IMG/VR virus record: IMGVR_UViG_3300022226_000002
Location: 1 to 64,000 of that record
DNA from: a virus
DNA length: 64,000 nucleotides
Reading direction: 5' to 3' (one strand)
The position numbers were made by a program, and so were the translations under genes. Below, one piece after another: positions 4,550 to 58,700 of the stretch. Under the pieces are notes generated by a model, which was not told the origin of the DNA, ran no database searches, and saw only the letters and a program-made list of their open reading frames with translations. The stretch's first letter is position 1. Every line of letters begins with the position of its first letter.

Positions 4550-5800
4550 TCATAAATCCGTTCCATCCAAAGAGACCGCTCCCAGACGTGACGATCTGAG
4601 CCAGTAAGAGTCGTAATCACTGCCGTATCGACGTTCACTGCGTGGCGCGTCTCGGCCTAGCGATGTCGCACCTGCGCGTTCCTGGTCGGTTTGAATCGCG
4701 AGCGGAAGAAGCTCGAGAAATCGGTTCTCGTGGACGTGCTCCCTCTCTTCGAAATTGTGCTCGGCGGCTGCGAGACACGCTTCCAGAATAAGCTGGCCCA
4801 GCTGCTCACCTCCTACCGGGTACTGATTTACAGAATCGATCATGGTCGGCCTGAGCAGCATCGGAACCCGCAAGACATAGGTGGCGTCGGGCGTGGGGTA
4901 AAATGCCAAACGACGCCTGCTTCCTGTCGTAGGGTCGAACTCTACTGTCCGCACCGAGTAGAACACCGGCCTATCGAAGTACGGGTCGTCCTGTTGCCAT
5001 GTCCGAATCGCCTGGTCGTGCCGCTGCCTGACGGGCGGATAGAGCTCGTTCTGATCCGGGTAGTATGTCAGGTCACTGTCATTTGACACGGCTTCAAACG
5101 ACGCATCCAGAGGAATTTCCGGTCGCCCGAGCTCATACGCCGTTCCTGCGTCGATATCCACCGTCGTGTCGTCCAACGTGATTTGTGTGTCGCTGTCCCG
5201 GCTGGCGATGGAGTAGTAGCTGTTGCTCGCCTTCAGCGTCCCGTCCGCTGCCCATGACGGAAACGTTCCGGTTGTCAGAGTCACCACGCCATTAACCACT
5301 GCGATAGTCCCCGTGGCGTAGGGCGGGGTGGTCGTTACGTCTTTAATGGGCCGGAAGAAAGACCACTCATGCGCGGCGTACACCCTTCGCAGGCCGTCTT
5401 TCAAACAGTCCTCCACATCATTTGTCTGATCAGCCGTCGCCCCATCGCGAATTCCGAACAGGTAATGCAGAACTCGTTCATACAGGCTCGCGTAGCTGGA
5501 CAGCATCCCGTAGGCATCATCGGCCACCGCAGGCAGGTCAAACTCGATATAGATGGTGTCGCCATCGTAGACGAACTCGATATAAGCGGTGTATGACACG
5601 TCGAACGCAGCGGTCAGGACATAATCGTAGGTGCCCGTGGCGCTGTTGGTCATGTTCGTTCCATCAGCAACTACCACCGCTTCGGTGTCGTTTCGCTTGA
5701 TACCATACGTGCCGGTTGGATCGGAGAGCTTGGCAGATGACACGTTCGTGAGAACGCCAGCAACCTTGAATGTCTGGGAAATGGTGCGGTTGATCGTCAT
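4550..5800 (-). CDS. Putative head-tail adaptor with N-terminal beta domain
   Basis: 416 residues. Residues 1-92 form a beta domain like the BppU or fibre N-terminal type. From about 100 the sequence turns helical (YERVLHYLFGIRDGA, DCLKDGLRRVYAAHEWSFF) and then beta, a layout of phage adaptor or gp4-like neck proteins in which a helical N-terminus is followed by a conserved ..YPTPDATYVLRVPMLLRP strand. The C-terminus again has helices (LGQLILEACLAAAEHNFEER). Its start overlaps the stop of the repeat-protein gene (ATGA). The adaptor assignment is inference from layout. Confidence 0.6.
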   Translation of the reverse strand: MTINRTISQTFKVAGVLTNVSSAKLSDPTGTYGIKRNDTEAVVVADGTNMTNSATGTYDYVLTAAFDVSYTAYIEFVYDGDTIYIEFDLPAVADDAYGMLSSYASLYERVLHYLFGIRDGATADQTNDVEDCLKDGLRRVYAAHEWSFFRPIKDVTTTPPYATGTIAVVNGVVTLTTGTFPSWAADGTLKASNSYYSIASRDSDTQITLDDTTVDIDAGTAYELGRPEIPLDASFEAVSNDSDLTYYPDQNELYPPVRQRHDQAIRTWQQDDPYFDRPVFYSVRTVEFDPTTGSRRRLAFYPTPDATYVLRVPMLLRPTMIDSVNQYPVGGEQLGQLILEACLAAAEHNFEEREHVHENRFLELLPLAIQTDQERAGATSLGRDAPRSERRYGSDYDSYWLRSSRLGAVSLDGTDL

Positions 5801-6753
5801 GTCACATCCGTCTCATCAAATGCGTAATCAGCACTCCCAGCGGAGCGAAACGTCACCTTGATCTCCCGTCTGCTATCTACATTCACTCCGGAAGACCTCG
5901 CTGTGAAGCACTGACTCTCGATGGTTATGATAACATCTGCGGCACTTGGGCTGGCGCTCGGGGTTGCACTCGGGGTTGCGCTCGGAGTTGCACTCGGAGT
6001 TGCACTTACACTGGCACTCGGGGTTGCACTTACACTGGCGCTCGGAGTTGCACTCGGACTCGCACTTGGGGTGGCGCTTACACTGGCACTCGGGGTGGCG
6101 CTCGGACTCGCACTTGGGGTGGCGCTTACACTGGCGCTTGGGGTGGCACTCGGGCTCGCGCTCGGGGTTGCACTCGGGCTGGCGCTGGGGCTGGCGCTGG
6201 GGCTCGCACTTGGGCTTGCGCTTGGGCTTGCGCTGGGACTCGCACTTGGGCTGGCACTCGGGCTTGCGCTGGGACTCGCACTTGGGCTGGCACTCGGGCT
6301 TGCGCTGGGACTCGCACTTGGGCTGGCACTCGGGCTTGGGCTTGCGCTTGGGCTTGCACTCGGGCTTGCACTTGGCGAGGCCGATGGTGACGCACTTGGG
6401 CTCGCGCTTGGGCTCGCACTTGGGCTTGCGCTCGGCGATGCCGACGGTGACGCACTCGGGCTCGCGCTTGGGCTTGGGCTTGCGCTTGGACTCGCACTGG
6501 GCGAGGCCGACGGTGACGCACTAGGGCTGGCGCTTGGGCTGGAGGCCGGGGCATCCGACACGTCAAGTGCAGGCGCGAACTCCCCAAACACGCCCTGCAC
6601 TCGATAGGCATCTGCAACACTTGTAAGGTCCTCGGAAACGACCGGTTTGAATTCACCGAAGACACCCTGGACATAGTTTAGACCAGCTGGGTAAAGATGA
6701 ATGCTCGGTTTAGCGCGCAGCGGCTGTATCGGGAATGAACGGCCGAGACGCAC
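5797..6753 (-). CDS. Virion protein with a 200-residue PSAS/PSAT linker
   Basis: 318 residues. The N-terminus carries a short internal duplication (YVQGVFGEFKP and RVQGVFGEFAP). Residues about 71-270 are an almost perfect SPSA repeat with TPSA and VSAT variants, and the last 48 residues are a small folded-looking domain (VIITIESQCFTARSSG). The linker has the composition of a flexible, potentially O-glycosylated spacer. It resembles the tail of the protein at 1.8 kb. Gene order between the adaptor and small fibre genes suggests a neck whisker or fibre. Length in relatives would be expected to vary with repeat number. Confidence 0.75.
   Translation of the reverse strand: MRLGRSFPIQPLRAKPSIHLYPAGLNYVQGVFGEFKPVVSEDLTSVADAYRVQGVFGEFAPALDVSDAPASSPSASPSASPSASPSASPSASPSPSASPSASPSASPSASPSASPSASPSASPSASPSASPSASPSASPSPSASPSASPSASPSASPSASPSASPSASPSASPSASPSASPSASPSASPSASPSATPSASPSATPSASVSATPSASPSATPSASVSATPSASPSATPSASVSATPSASVSATPSATPSATPSATPSASPSAADVIITIESQCFTARSSGVNVDSRREIKVTFRSAGSADYAFDETDVT
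5944..6543 (-). repeat. About 600 bp of 12-bp coding repeats (SPSA units)
   Basis: The coding strand repeats a four-codon unit encoding S-P-S-A, with blocks of S-P-S-A-T-P-S-A and S-V-S-A-T-P. Synonymous variation between units is high (GCN, AGN/TCN, CCN codons differ from unit to unit), and larger blocks of two to four units are duplicated. It creates long open frames in the opposite strand that are not genes. Repeat number is likely to be unstable. Confidence 0.9.
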
Positions 6754-17255: not shown

Positions 17256-17320
17256 TCGGTTCTCCCTCCTGGTTTCACCTCAGGAATGGTTAGATCCAGA
17301 AAACCCCACTAGGGACCAAG

Positions 17321-17392
17321 TGGCAGCCACGGGAATCGAACCCGAAATCGTCGCCTTATGAGAGCGATCGAGGCCCAGCCTCGCCAGCTGCT
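17321..17392 (-). tRNA. tRNA with CAT anticodon (Met or lysidine-type Ile)
   Basis: A 72-base cloverleaf can be drawn on the minus strand: acceptor AGCAGCT with GGCTGCC (first pair A-C mismatched), D stem CGAG/CTCG with a loop containing GGG, anticodon stem TCGCT/GGCGA with loop CTCATAA, five-base variable loop, T stem with TTCGATT loop, and discriminator A without encoded CCA. Positions 8-9 are GG instead of the usual TA and T-stem pair 49-65 is T-T. Its 5' half overlaps the end of the next gene, whose TAA stop is in the anticodon loop. The anticodon stem lacks the GGG/CCC pairs of initiator tRNAs. Confidence 0.7.
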
Positions 17393-17844
17393 TCAGTATG
17401 TTTCAAATGAGAAAAACCGCCCATCATGGTGAGGTCGCCATTCATCCTGTCGTACTCGTCACTTAAACCCTTGGTTATCGTCTGTGGCGGAAGCTCCTCG
17501 CCTACCACAAACCAGTCGATATCAATTCCATGAGCGTCACGCATCCGAAACACAATCTCTGAATACAGCCTGCTCCCGTGGAGGCAAAAGCTGCGCCATG
17601 CCGTCTTTGCTTCCAGGTCCACTCTTTCAGTCATCGGCTGTCCGCCAAACGTGACTGAGTGCAAGCTGGCATCCGACCTCGTCCGAATAACCCAACTGTA
17701 CCCACCGCTCTTGATGGTGAATTCCGACTCCCAGGGATCCGGACGTTCAAAGCCGAGCGCCTTCAAGGGGCGAACTAACGGTGCCAGAAGCACACCTAAC
17801 AAGGCACCCCGGCGCGTCATCGTAAAGCGATCTGCTTCCATCAT
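17356..17844 (-). CDS. Terminase-adjacent protein with twin-arginine-like start
   Basis: 162 residues from the ATG at 17844, which overlaps the terminase stop (TAATG); the longer frame begins with TTG. The N-terminus reads TMTRRGALLGVLLAPLVRPL, resembling a Tat signal (RR followed by a short hydrophobic run), but the run is short and the rest is soluble, with SGGYSWVIRTRSDAS and LHGSRLYSEIVFRM strands. Such a leader in a phage head-gene cluster is odd. Its last dozen codons lie inside the tRNA. No family named. Confidence 0.65.
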   Translation of the reverse strand: MMEADRFTMTRRGALLGVLLAPLVRPLKALGFERPDPWESEFTIKSGGYSWVIRTRSDASLHSVTFGGQPMTERVDLEAKTAWRSFCLHGSRLYSEIVFRMRDAHGIDIDWFVVGEELPPQTITKGLSDEYDRMNGDLTMMGGFSHLKHTEAAGEAGPRSLS

Positions 17845-19748
17845 TACCAGCCAACCACGTCTCGAATTCCCCAATCAGGACCACCGGATTTGACTCTTCT
17901 TCGTTCCTGCTGCTCCCGCCATAGAAAACTCCCATACTCAGGAGTTTGCCCAGTTTCTTCGCTCGTGTCAATCTTGTTTACCGCATTGTCGGTGTTAAAC
18001 ACCAGCCAACAGCCAGCTGAAGATATGGCCCGATCTCCATGGTTCTTCTCGGTCGCTCCCTTGTTTTTCGTCGGCGCATGAATGATTTTGTCACCGTCCC
18101 ACTCGTATTCACCGCACTCAGTTATCATTTCTGCCGACCGCGGAATGTACCGCCCTGTTTCCATCGCCAAGGCCATTTGCTCGAACATATCGGCCTTGTC
18201 GGGGTCTCGGCACGGCCAGCCGGGCTTGCGGCTTTTCTTCTGCGAGCCCAACTGCGTTACGTCCCGGAAGAATACGTTGCCGTAGTAGAGGACTTCCATG
18301 ACTTCCTTGGCGAAACCGCTGGACACCCCGGAATCTTCCCATCCCAACAAGGCTTTTCGCAGCCATAGGCATATCCCGACCACCCGGCGAGCGAACGGTC
18401 GCGGCTCGAGCCCCTTGATGGCGTATTCCACCACCTGCTCCCCAGTTCGGTCATCCAGCGCCGACAGCACTGAATTAGAGGAATAGGCACCCACACCACC
18501 CGAAGCAATGTCGCAGCCCACCGTGAACGGACCCAGCGGTGGAGCATTGTCGATGCCCGGCCTGAACCACAGTTTCAGCGGCCCATCGTCGCGAGGAATC
18601 AGACCCTGGAGCTTGAGCGTTTCCGAGTCAAAGACTGGCGTTCCTTGCCACACTGGGGGCTTGCAGTGTTGGCGTTTCACGCGATCTAACAGGTCTGCAG
18701 AAAACACCTTACCGACAGCCCCTCGCGGATCCATGTCAAGTTCGCGGGCAATGTATCGTGGAGTGGCACCGGGCTGAAGACGATGGGCGTTGTACCAGGG
18801 ACTCAAGACCCGGCCTTCCATCTTGTGGCCGCGACGTTCGATCGACTTCAACTCTCGCTGGTGGGACGCAATGTATTCATCAACTTCGTCCTGTTCTTCG
18901 GGCTTCAGCGCCTTGGCCACACCGTCATTCACGACATAGCTCAACCGCGAATGCAGCGGATTGTCCTTCCAGTCAAGCGTATACACTCGCGAGTTGTCAG
19001 GGTCTGTCGCCGACTCAAAGAATACGCCCGAATCGACACCGAACGTCGACACAAGAAATACTGCATTAGAAACATGGGATACTGAGCTGAGTACCTTGAA
19101 ATCGCGATTGGCCGCGATGAACTCTTCACTACCCGGCTCATCGAAGCAGAATAGGCTGGTCCTTCCTCCACGGGCCACATCGCTCGTTGCCGCGTAACCG
19201 CTCCACCCTGATCCGTTCGGCAGGCGGATCACATGCTCCGTCATGTTCCGCTCGTATCCGTCCGGAAGCATCCAGACAGGCAACCCGTCCAACATTGCCG
19301 CAATCTTGAACAAAATCGCACTGTCATCGACACGGCTATCAACAAGTTGCTCATTTCTCGTCACAAGCCCAACCGTGAATCCAGGCTCTTTCAGGGCGCG
19401 GCGAATGGTAACTGCCATGTAGGCAGCAGTTCCACCTTGAGCCCTGCTTTTTTTCAACGTCAGCGAAACAGGCTGCTCCGTGTGCATCGCCTCTTCGATC
19501 GTCTCGTCCATCGCCAGAATCACTGGCTCTTGATGCGGCCACAAGCAAAAAGGCTTCCTCTTAATCTTGGCCCGAGGCTCATGCACCCAGAGGAACGCCG
19601 CACAGAAGAACAGAACATCTTCCATGGCGGCCTGATACAAGGCATCCCTGAATCGGATGTCCGTCAATGCCCGCTCGCGGCAGCGAATGCGCCACTTCAG
19701 ATTGGCGATCGGGTCTTTCGGAACCAAATCATAAAAAGGAGCGACCAT
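17844..19748 (-). CDS. terL: Terminase large subunit
   Basis: 634 residues. ATPase: LTLKKSRAQGGTAAY at 97-110 is the phage-type Walker A (K-x-R-x-Q-G-x-T) and SLFCFDEPGSEEF at 198-210 is Walker B with catalytic Glu; FLVSTFG near 231-237 is motif III. Nuclease: FTVGCDIASGG at about 409-418 carries the first catalytic Asp, with further acids at WEDSG and KADMFEQMA. It packages DNA into the prohead through the portal. The start codon lies inside a terminator-like hairpin (see the 19733-19772 entry). Confidence 0.92.
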   Translation of the reverse strand: MVAPFYDLVPKDPIANLKWRIRCRERALTDIRFRDALYQAAMEDVLFFCAAFLWVHEPRAKIKRKPFCLWPHQEPVILAMDETIEEAMHTEQPVSLTLKKSRAQGGTAAYMAVTIRRALKEPGFTVGLVTRNEQLVDSRVDDSAILFKIAAMLDGLPVWMLPDGYERNMTEHVIRLPNGSGWSGYAATSDVARGGRTSLFCFDEPGSEEFIAANRDFKVLSSVSHVSNAVFLVSTFGVDSGVFFESATDPDNSRVYTLDWKDNPLHSRLSYVVNDGVAKALKPEEQDEVDEYIASHQRELKSIERRGHKMEGRVLSPWYNAHRLQPGATPRYIARELDMDPRGAVGKVFSADLLDRVKRQHCKPPVWQGTPVFDSETLKLQGLIPRDDGPLKLWFRPGIDNAPPLGPFTVGCDIASGGVGAYSSNSVLSALDDRTGEQVVEYAIKGLEPRPFARRVVGICLWLRKALLGWEDSGVSSGFAKEVMEVLYYGNVFFRDVTQLGSQKKSRKPGWPCRDPDKADMFEQMALAMETGRYIPRSAEMITECGEYEWDGDKIIHAPTKNKGATEKNHGDRAISSAGCWLVFNTDNAVNKIDTSEETGQTPEYGSFLWREQQERRRVKSGGPDWGIRDVVGW

Positions 19749-19772
19749 ACAGGAATTGTGCTGTATGGTCGC
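19733..19772 (-). promoter_or_regulatory. Terminator-like hairpin containing the terL start codon
   Basis: Minus transcript: 11-base arm GCGACCATACA, loop of ten bases, perfect complementary arm, then TCCTTTTT. The terL ATG is in the 3' arm, so when folded the start is sequestered, and the following U run makes the element look like an intrinsic terminator inside the first codons. No clear Shine-Dalgarno precedes the ATG. It could couple terminase synthesis to translation, antitermination or an RNA-binding protein. Confidence 0.65.
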
Positions 19773-19916
19773 TCACTGGTCAATTCACTCGTGCTTCTGA
19801 CAAGAGGCCATTCGGTATCATCTTTTTTATCGACCAGAAGCACAAGTCACATTGCCACAATCACGACCACGGTCGGTATCAGGTCGGCTGTCGAACGGGC
19901 AACGTTCCCATCGGCA
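19749..19916. other. Intergenic region with bipartite motif copies
   Basis: Between terL and the IS110-like gene. No open frame of note. It carries the 5' arm of the hairpin and three copies of the GGCGAC-type/TGATACCGA motif (boxes at 19812, 19873 and 19911). No sigma70-like promoter convinced me. Confidence 0.6.
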
Positions 19917-21161
19917 TCATTCACGCACTCGCCGTGGCACACCTTCTTGGTCGGCATCAAGAGGGTAATCGTGCCACCGATTCCACAAATCCCGAACAAA
20001 CCGTTTCGCCGCCAGCAATTGAGCATGCCGATGAGGGTGAAGGGCGACCTCTCCCGTTCCCTTGCAGTTCTGGCATTTCTTCCGGCCAACCTTTCCCGTG
20101 CCCTCGCACTTCCCGCAGATCCACCACTCGGGATGAGTTTCACGAGTCCGCTGCTTGGCCTCGTCGTAGCGTTTGCGGTAAGGACCCTCACCATTCTGCC
20201 GAACAATGTTCTCCTTCAGCTGCTGCATCGTGGCGTGCCGCTGAGGACTGTAGCCCGCCTCCTCCCAGTCCTCCGAGGTCAGTCCTTTCTCCAGCCTCCA
20301 GCGACTCGGCATCATCGTCTTGCCGTCCTTTGTGATCGGCGCACCGAACATCCGCCTCCACAGCTTTGCAGGATTTGGGTAATTGAAGAGATTGCCCGCT
20401 TCACCAATAATCGTCGCCAACATGCCAAGGCTGATGCCGCGAGTTTCTGGTTCATTGAACCACGGAGCGACCGGCAGTTGTCCCGCCAAACGAACCATCT
20501 CGTCCATCAACCCATTTTCGTAATCGGCCCATGCCTTGCGGGAAATCTTAGAAACACGGACGACCCCAGCGACACGCGTGCGTTCGGTATCAACGCGCGA
20601 GTCGTCGCCAGAATCGTCCGCAGTAGCACGTGGGTGCTCGGCATCAGCGATCTCGTCGCCTTCGCCCTGGACACTGTCACCATCGCAATCAGGTGAAGAC
20701 TCGTCCTCAGCGGCAAAGTCCACATCGGCATCATCGGTAGCAACGCCACTGTCTATCTCTTTGATCAGCTTCCCCGCCTTCTTCCACAGCTTCTCCCGCT
20801 CGGCTTCCGAGGGAAGTCCCGTGTGAAAACCGCACGCATTCCAGGCAACGAATGCGGTGATAGCGTTTTCTCCGCGGACGCTTTGCTTTAATGCAAAACG
20901 ACGCTGGCGTTCCAGGGATTGGAGGGAGCGGCAGAGTGAGTCCACAAATCCATCCTCGGAATCATGCTTCAACTCACCACTCTGCCGCACCTCCTGGGCA
21001 CCTGAAACTTCGGCAACAGGGCTGGCTTCGCCATTCCCATCTCCATTGGCACGTGCGTGGTCGGTATCAACGCGCGCGTCGCCATTGCCAGCACGTAGAA
21101 TCTCGGTATCAGACTCTCTGTCGCCAGCTCTTTTCTTGATTTGCCGTTTCTTGGTAGACAT
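19917..21161 (-). CDS. IS110-like C-terminal domain protein with zinc ribbon
   Basis: 414 residues. Residues 1-190 are acidic, low-complexity and hold several of the repeat motifs; a helical segment lies at about 72-137. Residues 240-275 (GISLGMLATIIGEAGNLFNYPNPAKLWRR) look like the helix-hairpin-helix of the IS110/IS116 transposase C-terminal domain. A CGKCEGTGKVGRKKCQNC zinc-binding pair of CxxCxGxG motifs is at about 350-370. No RuvC-like DEDD catalytic half is visible. Similar proteins beside phage terminases are often annotated as transposase; a DNA-binding role, even a small-terminase-like one, is possible but unproven. Confidence 0.6.
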   Translation of the reverse strand: MSTKKRQIKKRAGDRESDTEILRAGNGDARVDTDHARANGDGNGEASPVAEVSGAQEVRQSGELKHDSEDGFVDSLCRSLQSLERQRRFALKQSVRGENAITAFVAWNACGFHTGLPSEAEREKLWKKAGKLIKEIDSGVATDDADVDFAAEDESSPDCDGDSVQGEGDEIADAEHPRATADDSGDDSRVDTERTRVAGVVRVSKISRKAWADYENGLMDEMVRLAGQLPVAPWFNEPETRGISLGMLATIIGEAGNLFNYPNPAKLWRRMFGAPITKDGKTMMPSRWRLEKGLTSEDWEEAGYSPQRHATMQQLKENIVRQNGEGPYRKRYDEAKQRTRETHPEWWICGKCEGTGKVGRKKCQNCKGTGEVALHPHRHAQLLAAKRFVRDLWNRWHDYPLDADQEGVPRRVRE

Positions 21162-21293
21162 CTCTTTCTCCTTAGCATGGGCTCTGTCGGTAACAACGAT
21201 GATCTCGCTTCGGGCACGGCAACCTCCCTCTCGGCATCAGGGTTCGGGTCGCCATGCGTGACACAAAGGAAGTCGGTTACATTCGGGCCGTCG
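21162..21293. other. Intergenic spacer with three motif copies
   Basis: 132 bases between the IS110-like gene and its upstream neighbour, containing motif boxes at 21187, 21231 and 21273. A second frame reads through with the same peptide-like pattern (HGDPNPDAE), but in a different frame from the gene, which indicates repetition at the DNA level rather than of a protein module. Confidence 0.55.
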
Positions 21294-21821
21294 TCACGCA
21301 GCATCTCGTCCTAACTGTTTCGCAATCTTCTTGAACATCGCCTCAACCTCACGTTCTTTCAGACACTCCCGGACAGTACCTCCCTTTTTCGTGGAACAAG
21401 CCTTATAGCATTCGCGACACAAAGCCGCGTTGAACACCGAACCCGCCGCCTTCTCATCTTCCGCCTCTGCGAATGCAGGCAAGTCTTCCTTGTCGATGTC
21501 TCCCAGCAGCCAACCTGAAATCGTGTGCTCGAATACCGATTTCCGATACACAGACTCGGCCACATCACCCAAGGCTGAAGACGCACCAACCTTCCCTGGC
21601 CCGCCATAACCACCGTTGGCCTTTCGCATCTTTCGGTTGGAAACATGCCGAGCGAAATGTATTTGCTCACGCAAGGCACGATCGACCAATTCAGCAATCC
21701 ATTCCGGTAACTGCGGGATTTTCAGGCGACGCTTCACCGCCGACATCGCGCCTTCAATGTCGTCAATGTGTCGCATGGCACATTCCTGACACGCTCGCAA
21801 GACTCGTTCTTCTAAAGCCAT
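21294..21821 (-). CDS. Hypothetical protein with four-cysteine pattern
   Basis: 175 residues from the ATG at 21821 with a strong GGAGGAATGAA site. Helical N-terminus with CQECAMRHIDDIEGAMSAVKRRLKIPQLP; a later AALCRECYKACSTKKGGT may form a zinc site with it. A central LREQIHFARHVSNRKMRKANGGYGG is basic. Could be a small DNA-binding regulator or packaging accessory. No named family. Confidence 0.6.
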   Translation of the reverse strand: MALEERVLRACQECAMRHIDDIEGAMSAVKRRLKIPQLPEWIAELVDRALREQIHFARHVSNRKMRKANGGYGGPGKVGASSALGDVAESVYRKSVFEHTISGWLLGDIDKEDLPAFAEAEDEKAAGSVFNAALCRECYKACSTKKGGTVRECLKEREVEAMFKKIAKQLGRDAA

Positions 21822-21960
21822 TTCATTCCTCCGTGGAAGACAACTGCCCTTTCGGTAACACAACATTCCTCGTCACTTGACAGGTAGGTATTCGGTAACA
21901 CGAGATGCATCGTCATTTGGCGGCAGGAAAGAAACCGTAAACATCGGAGCTCTCGCCACC

Positions 21961-22050: not shown

Positions 22051-22092
22051 TCCAACGATGAATCTATCAGACTTGCGGTGCGGGGTCAATAC

Positions 22093-22392
22093 CTATCCTC
22101 GTTCCAGGGCCTCGCCCAAATCCATCTGCTTCAGCCGAGCCCGCAACGTGGACTCCCGAATTCCATACAAACTCGCCCAGGCCACAAGCGTTCGCCTCTG
22201 CCCCTTCCACTCCAGCCCGCACCGGCCACAGGACTGTGTGTGCCCGCTCCGCAAGTGGTCAAGCCTGACCGTAACCCTCTGGCCGCACTGGCACTTGCAC
22301 AAAAACTGGCGTTTAGACGCATGAGACTCGACCTCGAGAATCACTTCCAGGTCGCCGAAGGATGTGCCGGGAATGATATTTAGGCGTCTCAT
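22093..22392 (-). CDS. Zinc-ribbon plus helix-turn-helix DNA-binding protein
   Basis: 99 residues. GTSFGDLEVILEVESHASKRQFLCKCQCGQ followed by LRSGHTQSCGRCG matches the small CxCxCG..SxxTxSCGC module common in phage proteins often fused to AP2 or HNH domains. The remaining 30 residues (LVAWASLYGIRESTLRARLKQM) read as a helix-turn-helix. Likely a sequence-specific DNA binder or truncated homing endonuclease. First gene of the late leftward block; a regulator role would fit. Confidence 0.65.
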   Translation of the reverse strand: MRRLNIIPGTSFGDLEVILEVESHASKRQFLCKCQCGQRVTVRLDHLRSGHTQSCGRCGLEWKGQRRTLVAWASLYGIRESTLRARLKQMDLGEALERG

Positions 22393-39757: not shown

Positions 39758-41355
39758 CGTCTGCTCCTCAGATGCGGATACACAGCTTCCGGTGCGCGTT
39801 TCATGTCCGCCGAGTTATCGGGTAAATACTTCAAACCCTTGCGAGGCCATCGCCCCTGCTCACGCTGAAACATCGCCTTGCACCAGTTCAGCGTCTTCTT
39901 CTGTTTGTCGCGATTCTGAGCTTTGGAATTCCATCCGCGCGCGATGAAGACCCACTTAAGCCACGCTGCTTCTTCGCTGTCTTGATTCTTTTTCTTGCGC
40001 CTGCGAATCTCATCGGCCGGAACCGACCGAATGGAACCATCCTCGAACCGAATACGGCGAACTGACTTGGTGCCGACGTTCTCGCCGCAATTCGGGCATT
40101 TCCCTCCGACGCATTTCTGATAGGGTCTGAGTGCTTCTTTGCACATCGGGCACACCCATGGCTTGCGGGTAGCCCAGGACTCTCCACATGATTCGCACTT
40201 ATAGTTGCCGTCAATTGGTCCGTAAATGTCCTTGGAACCGCATTTTGGACAGCGAGTACCAGCTTTTCGCTCGTTGATCTCTTCGATGGTCTGGTCGTTA
40301 GTAATCTCACACCAGGGTGGGTCTTGATCCGGGTGAACCATGTGGCGCCACAGGTTTCCGGCGAAATCAATTACGACTGCTGACTCTTGACCTTCGTGTG
40401 GGCGTTTAATTCGCCCAAGTTTCTGCCAGTACACCCGAAATTGGTGAGTGGGCTGAAGGTCAATCAAACACTGTGCGATTGGCAAGTCGAGTCCTTCTCG
40501 GACCACATCCACGCCGAGCAGCATCTGGCAGTCTGTCTCTTTGAATTCGCTGAATGTGTCGTCTCGCTCATCCTGATGAGTTGTTCCGTCCACGATCTTC
40601 GCGGTAATGCCTTGAGTTATGGCAATCTTGTGGAACTGGTTGCACACCGCGCGATTCGGGAAAACCACCATCGTCTGCATGTGCCGATACGGTTCCCACT
40701 CCTTGAAGACGTCGCCGTACACGGTGCAGGATTCGACTCGTTGTCCAATCTCGTCCTGACTGGCGGACTTCAGGTTGATCCCACCCATATCGGGCTCGCT
40801 CGGCGCTAGATACGGGTATACTGGCAACAAGTGCCGCGCTTCAATCACTGCGGTATTCCGAATTGGCTCGATAACCACATCAAAATGGCCAATCTTCGAC
40901 CCTCCTGGTCCAACAGGAGTTGCCGTCAGCCCAAGGGCACGTACAGACGGGAATCGCTCTTTCAGCAACCTGCGGTAAGCGTCGTTCTCCTGGTGGGCTT
41001 CGTCGAGGATGATGAAGTCGGGCTGGTCGATCCCATGGAACTTGCGGCGCTTAAGCGTCTGGATGCTGGCAACTTGCACTGGGGCTTCATGGTCTTGGTC
41101 TTCGCTCCCCATAATGATGCCCGTGCGTATACCGGCCTGCTTACAGTGGTCACGGAGCTGGCGAACAATCTGGCGCCGGTTCGTAGCAATCAGGACTCGA
41201 TTGCCCTTGGATGCGGACTTCATTCCCATGTCGGCGATGACGACGCCCTTGCCGAATCCGGTCGGCGCTGTGGCGAGCACGCAACGATTCCTGCTGAACG
41301 CTTTGCGGATCTCGTCCTCAAATTCGACCTGTTGTGGGCGAAGCGTGTACGTCAT
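39754..41355 (-). CDS. SF2 helicase with C-terminal zinc ribbons
   Basis: 533 residues from the ATG at 41355 (ATGA overlap). Walker A ATAPTGFGKGVV at 29-39, motif II ILDEAHQEN at 116-124, motif III GLTATPVG at 142-149, and the ARGRI-like LGRIKRPHEGQ motif VI near 325. After the helicase core come three to four CxxC pairs (CPKCGSKD, CESCGES, CPMCKEA, CPNCGEN). A phage replication or recombination helicase of the UvsW/RecG-like SF2 class; which one is not decidable by eye. Confidence 0.85.
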   Translation of the reverse strand: MTYTLRPQQVEFEDEIRKAFSRNRCVLATAPTGFGKGVVIADMGMKSASKGNRVLIATNRRQIVRQLRDHCKQAGIRTGIIMGSEDQDHEAPVQVASIQTLKRRKFHGIDQPDFIILDEAHQENDAYRRLLKERFPSVRALGLTATPVGPGGSKIGHFDVVIEPIRNTAVIEARHLLPVYPYLAPSEPDMGGINLKSASQDEIGQRVESCTVYGDVFKEWEPYRHMQTMVVFPNRAVCNQFHKIAITQGITAKIVDGTTHQDERDDTFSEFKETDCQMLLGVDVVREGLDLPIAQCLIDLQPTHQFRVYWQKLGRIKRPHEGQESAVVIDFAGNLWRHMVHPDQDPPWCEITNDQTIEEINERKAGTRCPKCGSKDIYGPIDGNYKCESCGESWATRKPWVCPMCKEALRPYQKCVGGKCPNCGENVGTKSVRRIRFEDGSIRSVPADEIRRRKKKNQDSEEAAWLKWVFIARGWNSKAQNRDKQKKTLNWCKAMFQREQGRWPRKGLKYLPDNSADMKRAPEAVYPHLRSRR

Positions 41356-42158
41356 TTTAGCCCTTTCTTCCACGCATCCAGCGAGTTGAACAACTCCTTG
41401 GCAGCCTCAATCACACGGTCCCCCCGCTTCCCTGGGAACCGTTCCCGATACACGTCGATTCCAGCTGGGTTCCCATTCATCCACCGTCCAACGGTATCGG
41501 CCCAACCTTTCAGAACCTGCTGAACCTCCCACACCTCCTTCTCTCGGCCGGTTTTGGCTGTTATGGGCGGCGACTCCATGCCCGTGCTGGCGTCCGGACT
41601 GGCGCCGGCTGGAGCGGACGAACCGCCTTCCCCGCCGGCTGAAACGTCCGCATTACCCTGCGGAGGTTGATCTCCCACCTTACTGCTAGGCAATGGTGCA
41701 AATTGCACTTTTGGGGCCTTCCTCTCCGCAACCACATATTTGACTAACCGTATTGACACTCCGGCTTTAGAGGCAATCTCGGCCTGAGTCATCTTGTCGC
41801 CATTGTCCAGTAGCCACTCAACACAGGCCCGTTTGTCCGCGCGGCTCATGCGGAGCCCGTGGCGGTCGTTGGCGGTCATGCCGAAGATTCTGGCGTCCTT
41901 GACTGTGCCCTTGTGGACGCGACACGGAATGGAGCTCCGCTTGGCTCTCTGAGCCGCCAGAGTGCGGTGAAAGCCGTCGGCCACGAGGTAGTCGGTCCCA
42001 TCGTGGAACACGTCTAGAGGGCCGAAGGGCCATTCTCCATCGCTCTCGGCGATGAGATCAGCGTAATCCTCGACAACTTCTTCATCGATCGAGATTCGGC
42101 TTTGTGTTCCAGCATCGATTCTGATCGTGTCGACTGACAGAATCTGTGTTTTCGCCAT
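41352..42158 (-). CDS. ParB-like nuclease-domain protein
   Basis: 268 residues. QSRISIDEEVVEDYADLI, then DYLVADGFHRTLAAQRA at 57-72 with the GxHR motif of the ParB/Srx fold, then a helix-turn-helix near 122-142 (MTQAEIASKAGVSIRLVKYVV). The tail carries a Gly/Ser/Pro-rich linker before a helical end. Single-gene phage ParB-like proteins can be regulators or nucleases. Led by the structured leader at 42.17-42.25 kb. Confidence 0.8.
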   Translation of the reverse strand: MAKTQILSVDTIRIDAGTQSRISIDEEVVEDYADLIAESDGEWPFGPLDVFHDGTDYLVADGFHRTLAAQRAKRSSIPCRVHKGTVKDARIFGMTANDRHGLRMSRADKRACVEWLLDNGDKMTQAEIASKAGVSIRLVKYVVAERKAPKVQFAPLPSSKVGDQPPQGNADVSAGGEGGSSAPAGASPDASTGMESPPITAKTGREKEVWEVQQVLKGWADTVGRWMNGNPAGIDVYRERFPGKRGDRVIEAAKELFNSLDAWKKGLK

Positions 42159-49731: not shown

Positions 49732-52700
49732 TCACTTCTTTTTGCGTTCGTCGTCCTTCTTTTTACGTTCGTCTCTCCACCGGTCTTCCTGCTCAACCTT
49801 CCACCTTCCAAATTCGGTGTTGTATGACCGCTTAAGCTTGCCGGTCTTCGGATCTTTGACTATCGGCCCCTGTATCTCAAGCCGTGCGGCATCCTTATCC
49901 AAGCCGTAGAGCTCGGCGAGTGCCTTAAATTTGTCCCAGTTCATATCAGGAGCACCACTGTAGTGGTTCCATAGATGCTGCTGGGCTTCAACATTGGACA
50001 GGCCGGTGGCTTTGAGTTCCCGGACGGACTTCGCGAGGTCTTCCTTCCCTTTCTCCGACTCGGGTTCCTTTACGGCGTTGAACACAATATCCTGCAGCCA
50101 GTCCTGCCTTAGTTGGTCAATAGCCTGTGCGTCTTTAAGAAGTCTCTGGGCCTCGTCCCGCATCCCCTCTCGAATCTGGCGGGCTTCATCCTTCTTGCCA
50201 TCTTTGTAGAGGTTGCGCGCCTTGGTGCCCATTTCTCGCAAGTGTTTCGCAGCGGCCTTGTATTTCATCGTGGCCTGAAATTCCTTCCGCACACGGTCAT
50301 ACCCTTTGCGCCCAGCCTTCTTTCTCAGTTCGCGGCGGGCTTTATCGAAAGCGTCCGACTGCTCGTTGATGTACTTCACAGAAGCGGCGAGATAGCCGAT
50401 GGATGGTCGCCAGAAGAGTCGGCCAATCTGTGGGTATTCAGACAAGTCCTTGGGTAGCTTGCCTTCATTCAGGACGGAAAGGGTCCTGACTGTCTCTTCC
50501 ACCTGAGTGCCAACGAGATTGCCGACGACGTACTCAGCCATGATCGGGCTGACTTCTAGCTTCTCGCCGAGCCGCTTGTAGAACTCGGGAGTGCTTTCGT
50601 AAGCCTGAGATGCCGGGTCATCCCGGTAGAACGTCTTGAGGCTCTCGGGGACGATCGCTCTTTGTAACCAGAAGGAATAGTTCGCCTTGGCTTCTATGGT
50701 GGTGAGTCCGATGGGAGTTGCGAGACTGGATAACACTGGCATATCGGCAGTTCGTCGCGCGGCCTGAGCAAGCAACTTCTTGTCGTCGATGTTTACCCCG
50801 CTCATTTGTTCCATCGTCTTGTTGAACGTGTATCCAACGACGGCGCCCTCGGGACCGTATGGAATCGGCATTCGCAGCATTGGCAGCCCTGGCACCTTGA
50901 CCGGCAGGTCCCGCAACTTGCTGTCCTCTGGTTGCTCCACGTACTGCTCTCGCTCCTCGTCGTCCATCAAGGCCCACGTCACTGTTGCGGCCAGGGCGGA
51001 CATCGCCCCCAAGTAAGCCATTGCCACAGCCTGATCTCCACGACTGCGCTTCTGCGTGGCACGTTCAGCTACCTGATATACCACCTGCATTCCTGGATTT
51101 AGAAACATCGCAAAGCGGTAGATTGAAGCAATCACATTGGACCCAGGCCGGGAAATGAAGTTGCCGCTGATCTCGTCATATACCCGTGTTGACCGAATGT
51201 CCGTGGCGCCCTTCCTCTTCGCCACAACCGCTGCCCCTTCTCGAGGAGTGGATTCCGCCCACTGACTGGCGTATCGAATCGGAAAATTCAGAGCCTGGAA
51301 TGGCTTGTACGCTGCCCATGCCGCCTGGCCCGGAGCGTACTGCAGCCGATCAAGCCAGTTCATGTGTTTCCAACCATCGACAAGGATTCCTTGAGACATG
51401 AAGTCGACGAACCGATTCACTCCCAAAATGTGCTGGTCACTGTGGGTGTGCTTGAACGAGTTAGATAGCAGTTCTGTGTCCACCTTGACGGACTTGTCGC
51501 CAGCATCGAACAGATTGGCAACTTGGTTCGCAGAGCCTGCCGCCCAGTACACACCGGGGATGTAGCGTTCCATTCCCCTTCCCAACACCACGTTTCCGAA
51601 CAGGTCGCGGAACATAGCTCGGGGAACGAATGAAACGCTATTGGTGATCGAGTCCTTGATTGCCTGACCTGGACCGCCGAAGAAGTTGCTCAGCCACTGC
51701 ACTACCTTCGATGGACTTTCCACTCTGGTGAAGAAGTCATACAGCAGTTCATCCTTAACCTGCTCGAACTTCACCTTTCCACCCTCAAACCGCGTGAGTA
51801 CATTGACAGCCCGCGGTGATTTGGACCTAATGATAGGCTTTCCTGGGAAATTCACATCGATGTCTTTGGGGTCGATGGGGTTGTCTTTGTACTCCTCTGT
51901 TTCATTGAGGTATTCGGCAATCACCTCCTGCATCTCACTTCGATTCAACGTCGCTACCCTGGCGGAATCCAATCGCAGGGGAACCATGACTCGCTGCGCC
52001 GCCCACTTTGCTTCTGCAGGAACATCCTCCATTGCCTGGATGTCGGCCTGCATATCCTTCACGGCGTTTCGCACGGCGTTGTGGTAGTACGCTCGGTAGG
52101 CAGCATGAACATGGGAAGAGATGGCGTTCTTGAGATCCTGAAACGGGAGCACCGAGCCATGTGCGCGACGAAGCTGAGATCGCAACTGTCCCGCAGATGA
52201 CCCCAGTCGCGACTCACCCCGTTCCACCTGACGCGGCAAAGGCACGTAGAATTCATGGGCCTCAACCATCGTCTGGTATTGGTCCGTCGTCACTTCGCCA
52301 CTGAGGACATTCAGAAGCATGATCTGACGAAGGAAGCTGGTTAGTCTCGACTGCTGTTCTTCAAACTCTGGGTTATTGGATTCCGTCTCCTGAAGAGCGC
52401 GACGCAGTTGCTCGGGTCTTTCTCCGGCTGAACGACCAGGGTATTCGTGACCGTGCTTCTCCCATCGCTCCAGAGCCGACTTGCTCTGAGCGTACTGCAG
52501 AAATTCCGGCCACTTCTGTCGGCCGACGGCTACCGCAATATCATTGATGGTGTAGTCCGTGAGTTGTATGCGGTTTCCCTCTTCCTGAGACTCGGGAATG
52601 ACGGCACCAGCCGCTTCCAACTGCTCTATCTGCGTGTCGCTGAACCACTGCCGAGGAGCCATGACGGTCGCTCCTCGTTGCTTCTGTCTACCGAAAATGG

Positions 52701-55700
52701 CGCCACTCGCGTCTCCTCCGATATGCCACAGATAGTGCGACCAGTCACGAACAGATTGCACCCGCTCGTCAACCTTCTTTCCAATCTCCTTACCCGCCGT
52801 TAACGCTGCGTTGACGATTGGGCTTTCAAGACGATATGAAACCGCCGCTTCCGCGCTCATCAGATTGTACATTGAGCGGTGAACAAGCTCCGTAACCGCA
52901 TTCTTAGCCCCTCGCTTTGGCCCTACGGCGTGAGACCTCTGGCGGGCCATTACCGGACGCTGCATGTGGGCCACCAGGCCCCTGTGGGCGTCCCTGAGAG
53001 CCGCTGCCACATCGGGGTGTTCCACGTTCAACATCTCGAACATCGACTGCTGGAGCGGGGCAGGCACGCTGGAGGGGGCTGTTACGGATAGTCTCACCAG
53101 TTCCGCAAACCCTTCCCATTCAGTTTCGGCCGAGGCAGCCGTTCCGTCCCTCTGTGTCAATGCAATCAACTCTCCGGCCTGCTCCACCATCCACTCGGAA
53201 AACCGTTCGTTCTGAGACAACACCTCTGCCAGCGCGTGGCCCTGTTCGTGGAAGTTCCAAGGACCAACATCCGACATGGAGCGAATCAAGTGCGGCGTCC
53301 GCTGATACTGGCCGGGGGTTCTCAGCTGCTCGCTTCCGATTCTCATCTCGGCTTGCAGGGCGTCGGTGAAATCCTTGACGATCTGTCGAAATCCGACCGT
53401 GGTTCCTTCCCGGTCATTTTTCAGGCGGTTAACCGTTCGCTTGCCTCGGGATGTCTCCGGAGCTTGAGAGACGTACTCTGCTGGAGTCAGAATGGCGCCA
53501 ACGTCACCTGGCGCTCCCGCAAGCTCTGTTTCCTTCGGCTTGTCTTCGGTGGCCTTTGCAGGTTCTTCCTCTTCGGGAAGTGGTTGAAGCCTGATTAGCT
53601 TCTCTGGGTTTGTACGAGCTGACTCGTAAGCCGCTCGCGGTGAGTCCCCTTGGCCGACCGCGAATCCACCTGGAGACACAATTTGCCATCTGTCTATCGG
53701 TTTAACTGGCAACCCTTCCAAAATCTTCGGGGTTTCGCCAGGGGCAACAAGCTCGTAGTCGACGTGAAGACGGTCTTGAATCTCTTCGGCTGTCCACTCT
53801 CGTCGGTCCTGCAGTTCCGGGAATAACGGAGTGCCGTCCTTGTCCGTTACCTCTTTGGCGGGCAAGGGAGCGAAGTTGTCACCGACCGCGTACAGAATCT
53901 GTTCGTCTCCGCGGTGGCCCGCTACCTCGTATTCATTGCCTTTGTGGAACACCGTGGTCCCCACCGGAGCCCCAGCTCGCAGCCAGGCTGGTGAAGCACC
54001 TGGGTTAGCTTCCATCTCATCCTGCAAGGCTTGGAGCTTCGCACGCTTGGAATCAAGCTGCAGCTGCTTCGGGAATGGTTGGCCAACGGCCCCATGTGCC
54101 ATGTCGATGAATCGCTGATCCTTCTCGACGGACATCCGCAGCTTGTCGATCCGAGCGGGGATGTTGGACAACACACCCTGTAGGCTTTCCTCGCTCCAGC
54201 GCACATTCAGATTGCTTTCGCCCACGTAGAGAATGCCGTTGTTGTTGAACAGCGGCAGGCCGCGATACTCGCCGATCTGGACCTTGGCACCGATCGTGTT
54301 CTGGTATCGCTCCTCCAGAGCCTTCAACTCGTCTCGAATCTTGTCCTTCCCGGTGATTACCTGGTCGCGGATGGTGATCGTCGGCTTGTCCGGCTTGTTC
54401 TCCCGCCAGGTGTCGTGTTCCTGCTGAAGCAGGTCGATGCGTTTTTGGGTCGTCTCGATGAAGCCCAGCTTCTGGTTCGCCCTGGAAACCGTCTCGGTAA
54501 TTGTGCGCGCGTGGCTATCACGGGCCCGCTCCAGCTTCTGTACCTGGCCCTCAAGACGGATTCGCATCTGCACGCGGGGATCGCCGGCCGCAGCTGCGAA
54601 CGACTGCTCCATATCGGTCCCGGAGCCATCGTCGGAGAGATCGATATCGTCCATCTCGATCGTTCGTTCGGTTCCGTCAGCACGCATGAAGCGATCGATG
54701 AAGCGAGACTTGGTGAGAAGCACCTGCCACCGCCGGCCGTCCTGCGGTCCTTCTGTCAGATAGCGGTACTCGTGGACCGTGTTCCACTTGTTCCCCTGCC
54801 GGTGACCTCGGCCGTTCCGCTGTTCCAGGTCGCCAGGCATCCAAGGCGCGTCGAGGTGGTGCATCGCGGCCATCTCATCCTGAGCGTTGACCCCGGTTCC
54901 CATGGTCTCAGTCGACCCGATAGCGAAACGAATCTTTCCGTCTCGCATGTCCTGGGCCGCCTGGGTGCGACGACTCTTGCTCATCGTGGAGAAGATTGCT
55001 ATCTCGTTTTCAGCTACACCCTCTTCAATTAGACGACGCTTGACCTCCTTGGCTAGGTTGAACACCCGGACTCGCTCAGTAATGGGCTCGCCGTCATGTG
55101 TTCTGCCGAGCGTGCGAGTCGTCCAGTCGTTGTGCCCCACCTGCATAAAGATCATCTGCGTAGCCTTCGGATGCTCGTGGTAGTGAGCCATGGCATTTTG
55201 CAGCATCCGGTTGATCTTCAAGGCCGGGTCTTTCGGGTCCAGCGTGTTGCTGGTCTCTGGTCCCCAGTCGGTAACTATCGCCCCCTCGTCATTGACTCGT
55301 GTTCCAAATCCCGTCAGCCTCGGGTCCATGGCCAGCTTCACGCCCTCACCCTCAATGACCAGAGGGTTGTACCTCCCTCCGGGCTCTCGCATCATACGGA
55401 CCTTATCTCGGCCCTGAGCGTTCTTGAAGGTCGTGTACCGCTCTTTAAGTTCCTCGCTGTGTGCCTGTTGGTGGGGAATCATCTCCAAGGTGGTATTGTG
55501 GATTTGCTTGAACGGTATCCCTACCGGGTTCTCGGTACGACCCTCACGGCGATCGCGGGGAGAGAATTCAGGCATGTCCTCGGCGAAGACGATGTCCATG
55601 TACTGGCCAACCATCTGTCGCAGTTCAGGAAGGTTGACGAACGACGAAAGGCGGTCGAAGTTCTCCCACGTCCCACCGGAAGACAGCTCGGTCAACGTCT

Positions 55701-58700
55701 CTTGAGTCGCAAACGTGTTGAACCATCCATCCCAGTGACGCACGCCAGCCGCTTCCATATCCTCGGCCATTACGAACCGCATCATGTTGTAGATTTCGTT
55801 GATGGTGTTCGTGATCGGCGTCCCGGTGAACATATAAGCGCCGCGCCCGTTGTTGTTCCCCCGGATGTAGTCGGCCAGCATCAGCATCATCGTGCCACGC
55901 TTAGAAGCCGTCTTGTTGAGCCCTTTTATGTTTTGCTTGGTCGTGATCGGGAGCTTTTTGAAGATATGGGCCTCGTCGACCATGACCATGTCGACGCCCA
56001 TATCCTCGAACGTAATCCCCGTCCCCCTTTGCATAGCCTGGGCGGCTTTTGTGATCATAGCCCGCAGTTTGAGCCGTTCTTTCACCAGCTCCTTGGCTGT
56101 CGGCTCCCTGAGCCTCCTCAGCTCCTCGGAGCTCACGTCGTCCAGGTTCGCCGGCATACTGCCCTTGGAGAAATCAGCCGCTTCCGACTCCTCGTACGCT
56201 TCCAGCGCGGCAGCCTCCAAGGCATCCATTTCCGGCTGCAGTAGCCTTTCGACCGTCTCGGGACGCATCTGGAAACGATCGGCCATCGAATGTGGGACAA
56301 TGATCAAGTCCCAGTCTTCCGTGGCGATCGCCTGCAGGGTGGCTTCCTTCCGCTGGGCGTCCAGGTTGTCCACGTACAGAATGTTGGCGTTGGGGTAAGC
56401 CTCCTGGATCTCGTTGCGAACCGCCTGCGAATTGGCGTTGTGGGCCAGAAGCAGCGGTTTAGAAGCCAGCCCGAGCCGCCTCGACTCCATGGCCAGCGCG
56501 CCCATGGTCAACGTCTTCCCGGTGCCCACCTGGTGGCCGTAGATCCCGCGGCCGGACACGATGCCACGCCAGACGGCAGACTCCTGGTGCTGACGCAGAT
56601 TGAACGGCTGGTCTCCTCGCTCGAGCGTCAATCCCTCGAAATCGAGCGGGACGTCAGAAAAGTCTGGGGTGACGGTGCTGTTGAATTCCTCGTTGTAGAC
56701 CCCGGACAGCCGAGTGATACGGTCGGGGCTCGTCCAGATCCAGTTGGTGAACTTCTCCCGAAGCTCACTGATCTTCGTGTTGGCCTCGGCCGTGCTTACT
56801 GGATCCGCAATCCGACTACCGGGATTTTCCGGGTCCTCCATCGTCAGCTTCACCGTGGCATTGTTCATGGCCGCGTTCATCAGCTTGTTGAACGATATGC
56901 CTCGGTGACCGTGTGTGTGCTGGGCCTCTGTCTTGGCGTTGATTTCAGGAGGAATGTTGGTTCGCCATCCGTTCACCCGCATCTCTACGTCAAATGAACT
57001 CGCCGGCTCATTGAGGAGGAACCCAAGGAAATCGGCGTAGTCGCCTGCTTCGACCCACGTTGCCCCTAGCTTGGCTTCGATCTGCGAGTAGGGAATCGGC
57101 TCGGGCAAGCGTTCCTGAACAGCCTCAATCGACCGCTCCAGCCCATCCATTCCCTCGGCCTGCGCGGCTTGCAGCTGCCGCAGTTTGCGGGCCATGTTCC
57201 CCCGCAGGAAGACATCAGCTGCGTCGTAGGTGCCCGTGCCGGTCTTGTAAATCTTGCCACCGGATTCCAACTCGGAGATGACCTGATCGACCGGCACCTT
57301 GGCTGCCGCTGCGATCCGCTCCATGTCCAGGTCGAGAGATCGATTGCGCTCCATTGCAAACGCATCGTCAACCGTCGGCTTCTCGACAACCTTCCGCTGG
57401 CGAACGGTCGACCGCTCGAAGATTGGACGCTTGGTGAACGTGCCGTCTTCCTGCTCGGCTTCTAGGGACAGCATGGTGGCTGCCATCGGATCGCCAGCAC
57501 GAACCAGGTGGCGCACCGCCGCTGACTTGCCGAGAGGGCCGTATTTTGCCACGAACGCATCGTAGACGCGGTTCAGCTCGGCGCGGGACTTGGTGGCATC
57601 CTCGCTGACTGCCTGCTTGCCCAGCACCTCCCGCATGGCCTCACGAACGTCAAGAGCGGACTCAATCTGCTTGCGGTTGGCTATGATCGTCGCTGCCTTC
57701 GTTCCCTTCTTGCGGCGCCACGGGACGAAGTCGATCAGCGGAAGCAGCTGTTCGCCTTTGACAATCCACAGGTCGTCATCCTGGGAAATGACGCTATTCT
57801 GCCGCATCTGCGTGAGGTTGGCCCGCTCTCGCCCCTCGGAAGGCGCCCGCTCGGTGTCAATAGTGCCTTCCGGGAGCCTGGCCATTGCTTCATCCAGCGC
57901 CGCCTGCAGGTCCGCCGGCGGGTCCACGATCATACCCGGACGACCGGACGTGGTTCCGTGGCCGTGGGTCATCGTCCCAAGGATGTTCTCCGGGTGATTC
58001 AGCCAGTATTCGTTGACTGCAATCGTTTCGCCGGCGGGAGTCTCGTAATCGACGATGGAGGTCCACTTTTCTCCGGTTGGTTCTTCACCCGGCTTTCGCT
58101 TCCGAATGACAACCAGATCCGCAACCACCTTCGTTCCGGCATAGGCTTGGAAGGCGCCAGTCGGCAACCGGATCGCTGCGACCAGGTCTCCATCGTTGGC
58201 GATCTGGGCACGCATCAGCTTCGCCTGGACCTTGCCGTCCATCGTGCTGTTGGACGTGATGAACGCCAGCACACCGCCCGGCTTGAGTTGGTCGAATGCT
58301 TTCTTGAAGAAGTAGTTGTGAATGGAGAAGTCTTGCTTGTACCGTCGATCGGGAATCTTGTAGTTGCCGAACGGCACGTTGGACACGATCACGTCGTAGA
58401 AGTTGTCGGGCGTCTGGGATTCCTGGTAGCCCATCTGCTGGATGTTTGCGTCTGGATGAAGCGACCTGGCGATGTTGGCCGTTATGTTATCCAGCTCGAT
58501 CCCGGTGAGCCTGGAATTGCCCATCAGATCGCGTGGCATCAGCGCGAAGAAGTTGCCGATCCCCATGGACGGTTCGAGCACGCGACCGCCCTCGAAGCCC
58601 ATGCGGCGCAGACCGTCCCAGATGGCCGTGACGGTTTGAGGGTCAGTGAAGTGAGCGTTGACGATCGACTGCTGAGCTGACTTCCAGTCTTCTTCACCGA

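Follow-up and report, generated by a model that had tools for sequence, protein, structure and literature searches.

The DNA analyzed here is a 64,000-nucleotide (nt) window of the IMG/VR virus record IMGVR_UViG_3300022226_000002, in which an array of 17 short repeat units and the two genes that it surrounds, P0002 and P0001 (tas), lie on the minus strand directly upstream of the large terminase gene (terL) and are considered as a candidate TIGR-Tas system, TIGR standing for tandem interspaced guide RNA. The first 126 bp of the 78,933-bp genome record (G000) are repeated near its end, and the record is therefore essentially complete. On the minus strand, 16 matches to GGCGAC-N8-TGATACCGA with at most three mismatches were found between 19812 and 21914, whereas shuffled sequences averaged 2.0 matches and never exceeded 7; the whole window contains 23 such matches on both strands. 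Every copy in the array has the same orientation. The original prediction of about 16 copies, pointing in one direction and distributed over three intergenic spacers and a gene, therefore held in both number and location, since only about 2 matches would be expected over the entire window and 16 lie on the minus strand of the array. The scan for equal motif density elsewhere in the genome, which had been named as a possible refutation, was also run, and the density was not matched outside the array; no array of comparable kind was found in the remainder of the 78.9-kb genome. The sole other cluster of similar words (L056:5887-6809, approximately 65.9–66.8 kb of the genome, plus strand) was rejected as a second array, because it codes for Ser/Pro/Ala repeats and resembles the array by chance. 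Low-complexity SASPSATPSA repeat proteins are encoded at L056:5706-7085 (approximately 65.7–67.1 kb of the genome) and at 5797–6753 of the window. An exact-pattern scan of IMG/VR with the 23-mer of the original prediction gave isolated matches only, with no second array among the matches listed.

The two-part word GGCGAC-N8-TGATACCGA is real, but it is only a fragment of a larger unit, CGA-9 nt-TGNTNCCGA-9 nt-TG, in which box C (CGA), the 9-nt spacer A, the loop repeat TGNTNCCGA, the 9-nt spacer B, and box D (TG) follow one another and are flanked by arms that vary between units and pair with each other within a unit. Among the 16 minus-strand words of the window within one mismatch of TGATACCGA, CGA is located exactly 9 nt upstream of 12 and TG exactly 9 nt downstream of 15. 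The corresponding counts in the terL relative L001 are 11/16 and 15/16, and neither box occurs at 8 or 10 nt from the loop word in either sequence. Both spacings together were observed for none of 10 control words outside the array on the minus strand and for 1 of 14 on the plus strand. When 36 units (17 from the window and 19 from L001) were stacked, the loop repeat was nearly invariant and both 9-nt spacers were at background conservation. The boxes are common to the loop and edge elements, both of which are closed by CGA and opened by TG. The GG of GGCGAC is part of the variable pairing arm, its final C is the base with which spacer A most often begins, and the GTGCC element also lies within arms that vary from unit to unit. 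In both the window and L001, the arm pairing within units exceeds that of all 5000 partner permutations (0/5000 match), and folds of sample units gave stem-closed loops, with z about −4 in two of three and −1.5 in the third. The downstream units of L001 are nearly dual-repeat in appearance (TGTGCCACGA/TGTGGCACGA edges).

The gene within the array, tas (19917..21161, minus strand), is preceded by the Shine-Dalgarno (SD) sequence AAGGAG before its ATG and encodes the 414-aa protein P0001, which contains a Nop domain and a CxxCxGxG zinc motif. P0001 matches the NCBIfam model NF052498 (TIGR_Tas_endo, TIGR-Tas RNA-guided endonuclease) with an E-value of 2.5e-16 and 60.3 bits. The same model is matched by every member of the set of seven homologs, in which P0001 itself is joined by proteins of L001, two Rhizobium genomes, and three IMG/VR contigs. 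A profile built on these seven homologs matches PDB 9mty (E 1.6e-13), a structure to which the description of TIGR-Tas (Faure et al. 2025, PMC12045711) refers. In a Foldseek search with an AlphaFold model made from the seven sequences, the top six matches were TasH-tigRNA complexes (probability 0.96–1.00), followed far lower by Nop5 and Prp31 (E about 5). Since no HNH or RuvC domain was found in P0001 with Pfam, PHROGs, and NCBIfam, the protein is TasA-like and is predicted to be a nuclease-less, TasA-type Tas protein with a Nop domain. The homologs were reached by way of terL (L001) and a weak 25% match in Rhizobium phage RHph_X2_25; P0001 or P0002 as a lone query found nothing in IMG/VR and phages. 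The designation "IS110-like" was apt insofar as P0001 is related to IS110 through the Nop domain, which IS110 and Tas share (PMC12045711), and its earlier nomination as the binder of the repeats has stood, the protein being the likely binder. P0001 does not possess the DEDD/RuvC-like catalytic domain of IS110 transposases, and its N-terminal 68 residues are array-encoded and disordered. The PHROG labels "transposase" and "antitermination Q-like" had raised the idea of a late regulator, which was dropped; the Q-like match comprises the CxxCxGxG zinc motif only.

Direct repeats within or around the gene of a nucleic-acid-binding protein are known from lambda O-type iterons, and the repeats in and around the P0001 gene resemble them. 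P0001, or some other protein of the phage, might be envisaged to bind the repeats as DNA, in which case they would form an operator, iteron, or partition array serving in autoregulation or as a replication origin or centromere; a ParB-like gene is present at 41352–42158. This explanation is nonetheless very improbable, because the GC skew has no switch at the array, the distance between units is irregular (36–61 nt) while that within units is exactly 9 nt, unit-specific pairing of arms is not expected of an operator, and the protein family binds guide RNA. Contact of a protein with both halves on one face of the DNA, as originally suggested, was not borne out, as the units appear to be RNA guides with variable 9-nt spacers and covarying stems. 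The fixed spacing does have a mechanical meaning, although its reason would be the length of the guide in a Nop-domain ribonucleoprotein and not helical phasing.

The array next to terL is very probably a TIGR guide-RNA array, with the gene within it encoding its TasA-type Tas protein, and the tas mRNA would also be a guide precursor. TIGR-Tas was described in 2025, in a paper that leaves its natural role, array growth, and guide maturation as open questions (PMC12045711). Published TIGR arrays possess two alternating 8–12-nt repeats, 9-nt spacers, boxes C and D common to the loop and edge repeats, and a terminator; in a second type, variable palindromic stems replace the edge repeats, and the loop is sometimes conserved (PMC12045711). 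Every sequence-level feature of TIGR is present in the window array. The published TasA type (Faure et al. 2025, PMC12045711) has in common with the window the Nop protein, the two-spacer units, the phage setting, and the terminator, whereas here units lie within the tas open reading frame (ORF), box C is CGA and not CCA, a zinc motif occurs in the C-terminal region of the Nop domain, and a second gene recurs upstream. The stem-loop arrays (PMC12045711, Fig. 7) are similar in their variable palindromic arms and in spacers adjoining boxes C and D, whereas the window combines variable stems with a strict 9-nt loop repeat; the window array is intermediate between the two published array types. 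IS110 transposases and their bridge RNA likewise have a Nop/RNA-binding C-terminal domain and a split guide RNA, in contrast to the window, where there is no DEDD catalytic domain and an array of many guides takes the place of the single bridge RNA. CRISPR, which is characterized by near-identical 25–36-nt repeats, spacers of similar size, and cas genes, was rejected in view of the 9-nt repeats and spacers; no cas genes were seen.

By analogy with the published system, the minus-strand transcript would be cut into units of approximately 36–60 nt, a Tas dimer would bind boxes C and D, and an 18-bp DNA target would be recognized by pairing of one spacer with each of its strands; the target would be bent or unwound and remain uncut. 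Because a nuclease is absent, guide-directed occupancy of DNA is the likeliest action, and the most likely use would be interference with or regulation of other DNA, such as that of rival phages, plasmids, or host genes. TasA has been proposed either to interfere, without cutting, with other mobile elements or to assist integrases (PMC12045711).

Several observations weigh against this assignment. P0001 (60.3 bits) misses the equivalog cut-off of NF052498 (100 bits), which none of the 27 records tested reached; as this is an endonuclease equivalog model, P0001 is classified as a Tas relative and not as that equivalog. The confidence of the AlphaFold model is moderate (mean predicted local distance difference test score of 65), and every Foldseek E-value is above 0.001, so that the fold evidence leans on the probability and on the top matches all being the same kind of complex. 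The degenerate box C of units 9 and 10 suggests that some units may be non-working. A search for targets of the spacer pairs in 655 kb of the own genome and relatives gave nine matches with at most two mismatches, against approximately six expected by our own estimate, and no promoter-like site was seen directly upstream of the array. An exact target search in IMG/VR gave six scattered matches for one unit and none for another. Neither search yielded a convincing target or an excess over chance.

The 17 units, all on the minus strand, extend through both genes. Unit 1 (21881..21912; CGA TGCATCTCG TGTTACCGA ATACCTACC TG) and unit 2 (21841..21872) are located upstream of the accessory gene P0002, and unit 3 (21262..21293; arms GCGTGA/TCACGC), unit 4 (21220..21251), and unit 5 (21176..21207) between P0002 and tas. 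Within the tas ORF, units 6 (21092..21123), 7 (21050..21081), 8 (20999..21030), and 9 (20945..20976; degenerate box C TGA) lie in linker 1, and units 10 (20714..20745; degenerate box C CGT), 11 (20672..20703), 12 (20627..20658), and 13 (20573..20604; ahead of coiled-coil helix 2) in linker 2. Unit 14 (19940..19971; arms GGTGGCA/TGCCACG) lies in the C-terminal tail of tas. Unit 15 (19900..19931) spans the end of the gene, the TGA of its loop repeat TGATGCCGA (19919–19911) being the tas stop codon. The intergenic units 16 (19862..19893) and 17 (19801..19832; closing stem of 12–13 bp, 19835–19847/19787–19799) follow downstream. Thus, 8 of the 17 units are situated in two acidic, disordered segments of tas, a ninth in the C-terminal tail, and a tenth supplies the stop codon. 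The unit-encoded residues 1–68 and 142–185 of P0001 are both disordered in the AlphaFold prediction. Compared with the homologs, linker 2 is inserted between the helices of the Nop coiled coil, and a wrong start codon therefore does not explain the units in the ORF; good SD sequences precede the ATG in both the window and L001.

The units in the ORF share one codon phase, with gaps that are multiples of three, while the intergenic gaps (37–61 nt) take any phase. The earlier statement that the repetition is of DNA and not of protein holds at the level of nucleic acid, because the stop-codon and intergenic copies leave the reading phase of the in-ORF copies, although these latter copies do not cross frames among themselves. 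The single frame, together with similar-looking DNA in the Ser/Pro/Ala repeat genes, might alternatively suggest an acidic G-D-x-x-x-D-T-E protein repeat expanded by slippage, with no RNA role and with intergenic copies as eroded gene ends. The likelihood of such an origin is negligible, given that the boxes and 9-nt spacing are kept equally well in intergenic copies, four intergenic gaps of L001 are exactly 37 nt, the arms covary, and a loop repeat provides the tas stop codon.

Units inside tas are not mentioned in the main text of PMC12045711, where arrays are positioned upstream, downstream, or between genes, and units running through the ORF of their own effector look like a new arrangement. 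It recurs in two unrelated viral contigs, of which L180 has six stem-loop units in its tas ORF (0.17 expected) and L179 has four (0.06 expected). In L181, the linker of the upstream gene contains two units, and further units extend across the 3′ end of tas. With about half of the units within the ORF, the tas mRNA would double as a guide precursor, the in-ORF guides could be expressed only together with the tas message, and their excision would destroy that message, which may constitute a built-in feedback. For this phage clade, there is about an even chance that array and effector gene form one dual-coding object, in which guides run through the coiled-coil domain of the very protein that employs them and guide maturation consumes the message, so that guide supply and protein level are coupled, and guides turn over by recombination at loop repeats. 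If so, such recombination would create new spacer pairs without an adaptation module. It is possible, though on balance doubtful, that the locus is a real TIGR-Tas system whose ORF extension is a by-product, the array overlapping an open frame with translation irrelevant to function. The linkers are disordered and diverge freely between the window and L001, and all units found in L178 are intergenic, as this alternative would have it. On the other hand, the frame is maintained over approximately 130 linker codons in the window and 200 in L001 despite gains and losses of units, the in-ORF pattern recurs in L179 and L180, and the linker 2 units, being inside the Nop domain, must be translated. 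An array partly encoded in its own effector would bear on both guide maturation and regulation.

Among 54 terL relatives, the same system was found in L001 (terL 87%), whose Nop domain shares 89% protein identity with that of the window and whose linkers are longer and contain more units. tas was not found in the other terL-relative records searched, some of which are short fragments. The spacer pairs of the window and L001 are mostly different, and such a pair of sister phages, alike in effector but not in most guides, is useful for finding targets. In window unit 11, spacer A corresponds to that of one L001 unit (8/9 identical) and spacer B to that of the next (9/9), with the intervening 39 nt absent; recombination at the loop repeat would give this pattern, and this trace of spacer shuffling indicates one possible route of array change. 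In Rhizobium phage RHph_X2_25, the sense-strand units carry box C CCA.

The position of the array, directly upstream of terL, and its direct repeats in a single orientation had suggested a packaging (pac) site or an array bound by the small terminase TerS, and the 126-bp end overlap that closes the genome, making it circular or circularly permuted, would accord with this. No match to TerS was found for P0001 or P0002, however, the array is absent from this place in most close terL relatives, and the same type of array adjoins tas and not terL in RHph_X2_25 and others. Together with the variable 9-nt spacers and covarying RNA stems, these findings make a pac site highly improbable, and that part of the original prediction was abandoned, no TerS-like protein having been recognized. 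In another relative, L015, an unrelated repeat array occupies the same slot next to terL. This array, also present in L004, occupies a noncoding, G-rich stretch of 1 kb upstream of terL (L015:6941-7960), in which AGGCGGTC occurs approximately 20 times with a period of 49 and steps of 5 bp, and has no tas or stem-loop units; lacking the unit geometry, it was rejected as another TIGR array. In L020 and L028, approximately 2.1–2.4 kb upstream of terL, AATCCGTAC repeats in the DNA correspond, codon by codon, to NPY repeats in a secreted-looking protein.

The accessory gene P0002 (21294..21821, minus strand) starts at 21821 after the SD sequence GGAGG, its ORF being listed from 21866. A helical protein of 169–275 aa is encoded directly upstream of tas in RHph_X2_25, L178, L179, L180, and L181, in the last of which it was assigned by position only. 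L177 has a similar ORF upstream of tas, and the gene order of the window is seen across L176–L181. The case for homology of P0002 to this set is no more than suggestive (a single hhalign comparison, E 0.008 and probability 5%), and no family match was found for P0002, P0005, or the aligned accessory members. Each new locus examined has a helical gene directly upstream of tas, while PMC12045711 reports no clear partner of TasA except TasParB in some operons. The TasParB-TasA operons described there (fig. S14) are also two-gene operons with arrays around and between the genes; in contrast to these, P0002 and its positional counterparts gave no ParB match. ParB-like partners of TasA are reported in the same paper (PMC12045711). 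In the window, the ParB-like protein at 41352–42158 is encoded beside a helicase gene, 20 kb from tas.

Downstream of the system, terL (17844..19748, minus strand; phrog_5989, E 5.8e-07) is a neighbor outside it. A terminator-like element, a 14-bp hairpin followed by CTTTTT (19739..19774, minus strand), lies 3′ of the last unit and overlaps the terL start codon. A promoter-like sequence, TTGACN-N17-(C/G)ACAAT, is located at 19783–19739; in several relatives, approximately 6 nt separate its end from the terL ATG, which suggests a leaderless terL mRNA. Both arms of the 14-bp inverted repeat over this element are changed between the window, L001, and L015. Because the promoter-like element and hairpin are present in several relatives without the array, they belong to terL, and the hairpin may additionally end the array transcript. 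Upstream, a zinc-ribbon/helix-turn-helix (HTH) protein related to HNH-linked domains (phrog_374), a candidate small terminase or regulator, is encoded at 22093–22392. Two dozen relatives have this gene upstream of terL, many of them with 50–550 nt in between, while in the window the 2.3-kb TIGR-Tas cassette lies between the two; the terL-adjacent position is a variable cargo slot. At 22089–21965, a promoter-like site precedes a strongly structured element that may form a pseudoknot (GGCTCCGGGAAAG/CTTTCCCGGAGCC and GCCGCC/GGCGG-T8), which is 79% conserved in L015 and has no Rfam match. Elsewhere in the window, a tRNA-Met (CAT) gene (17320–17392) lies between terL and the portal gene, and a single ORF of 4469 aa (49732–63141) occupies approximately 17% of the genome.
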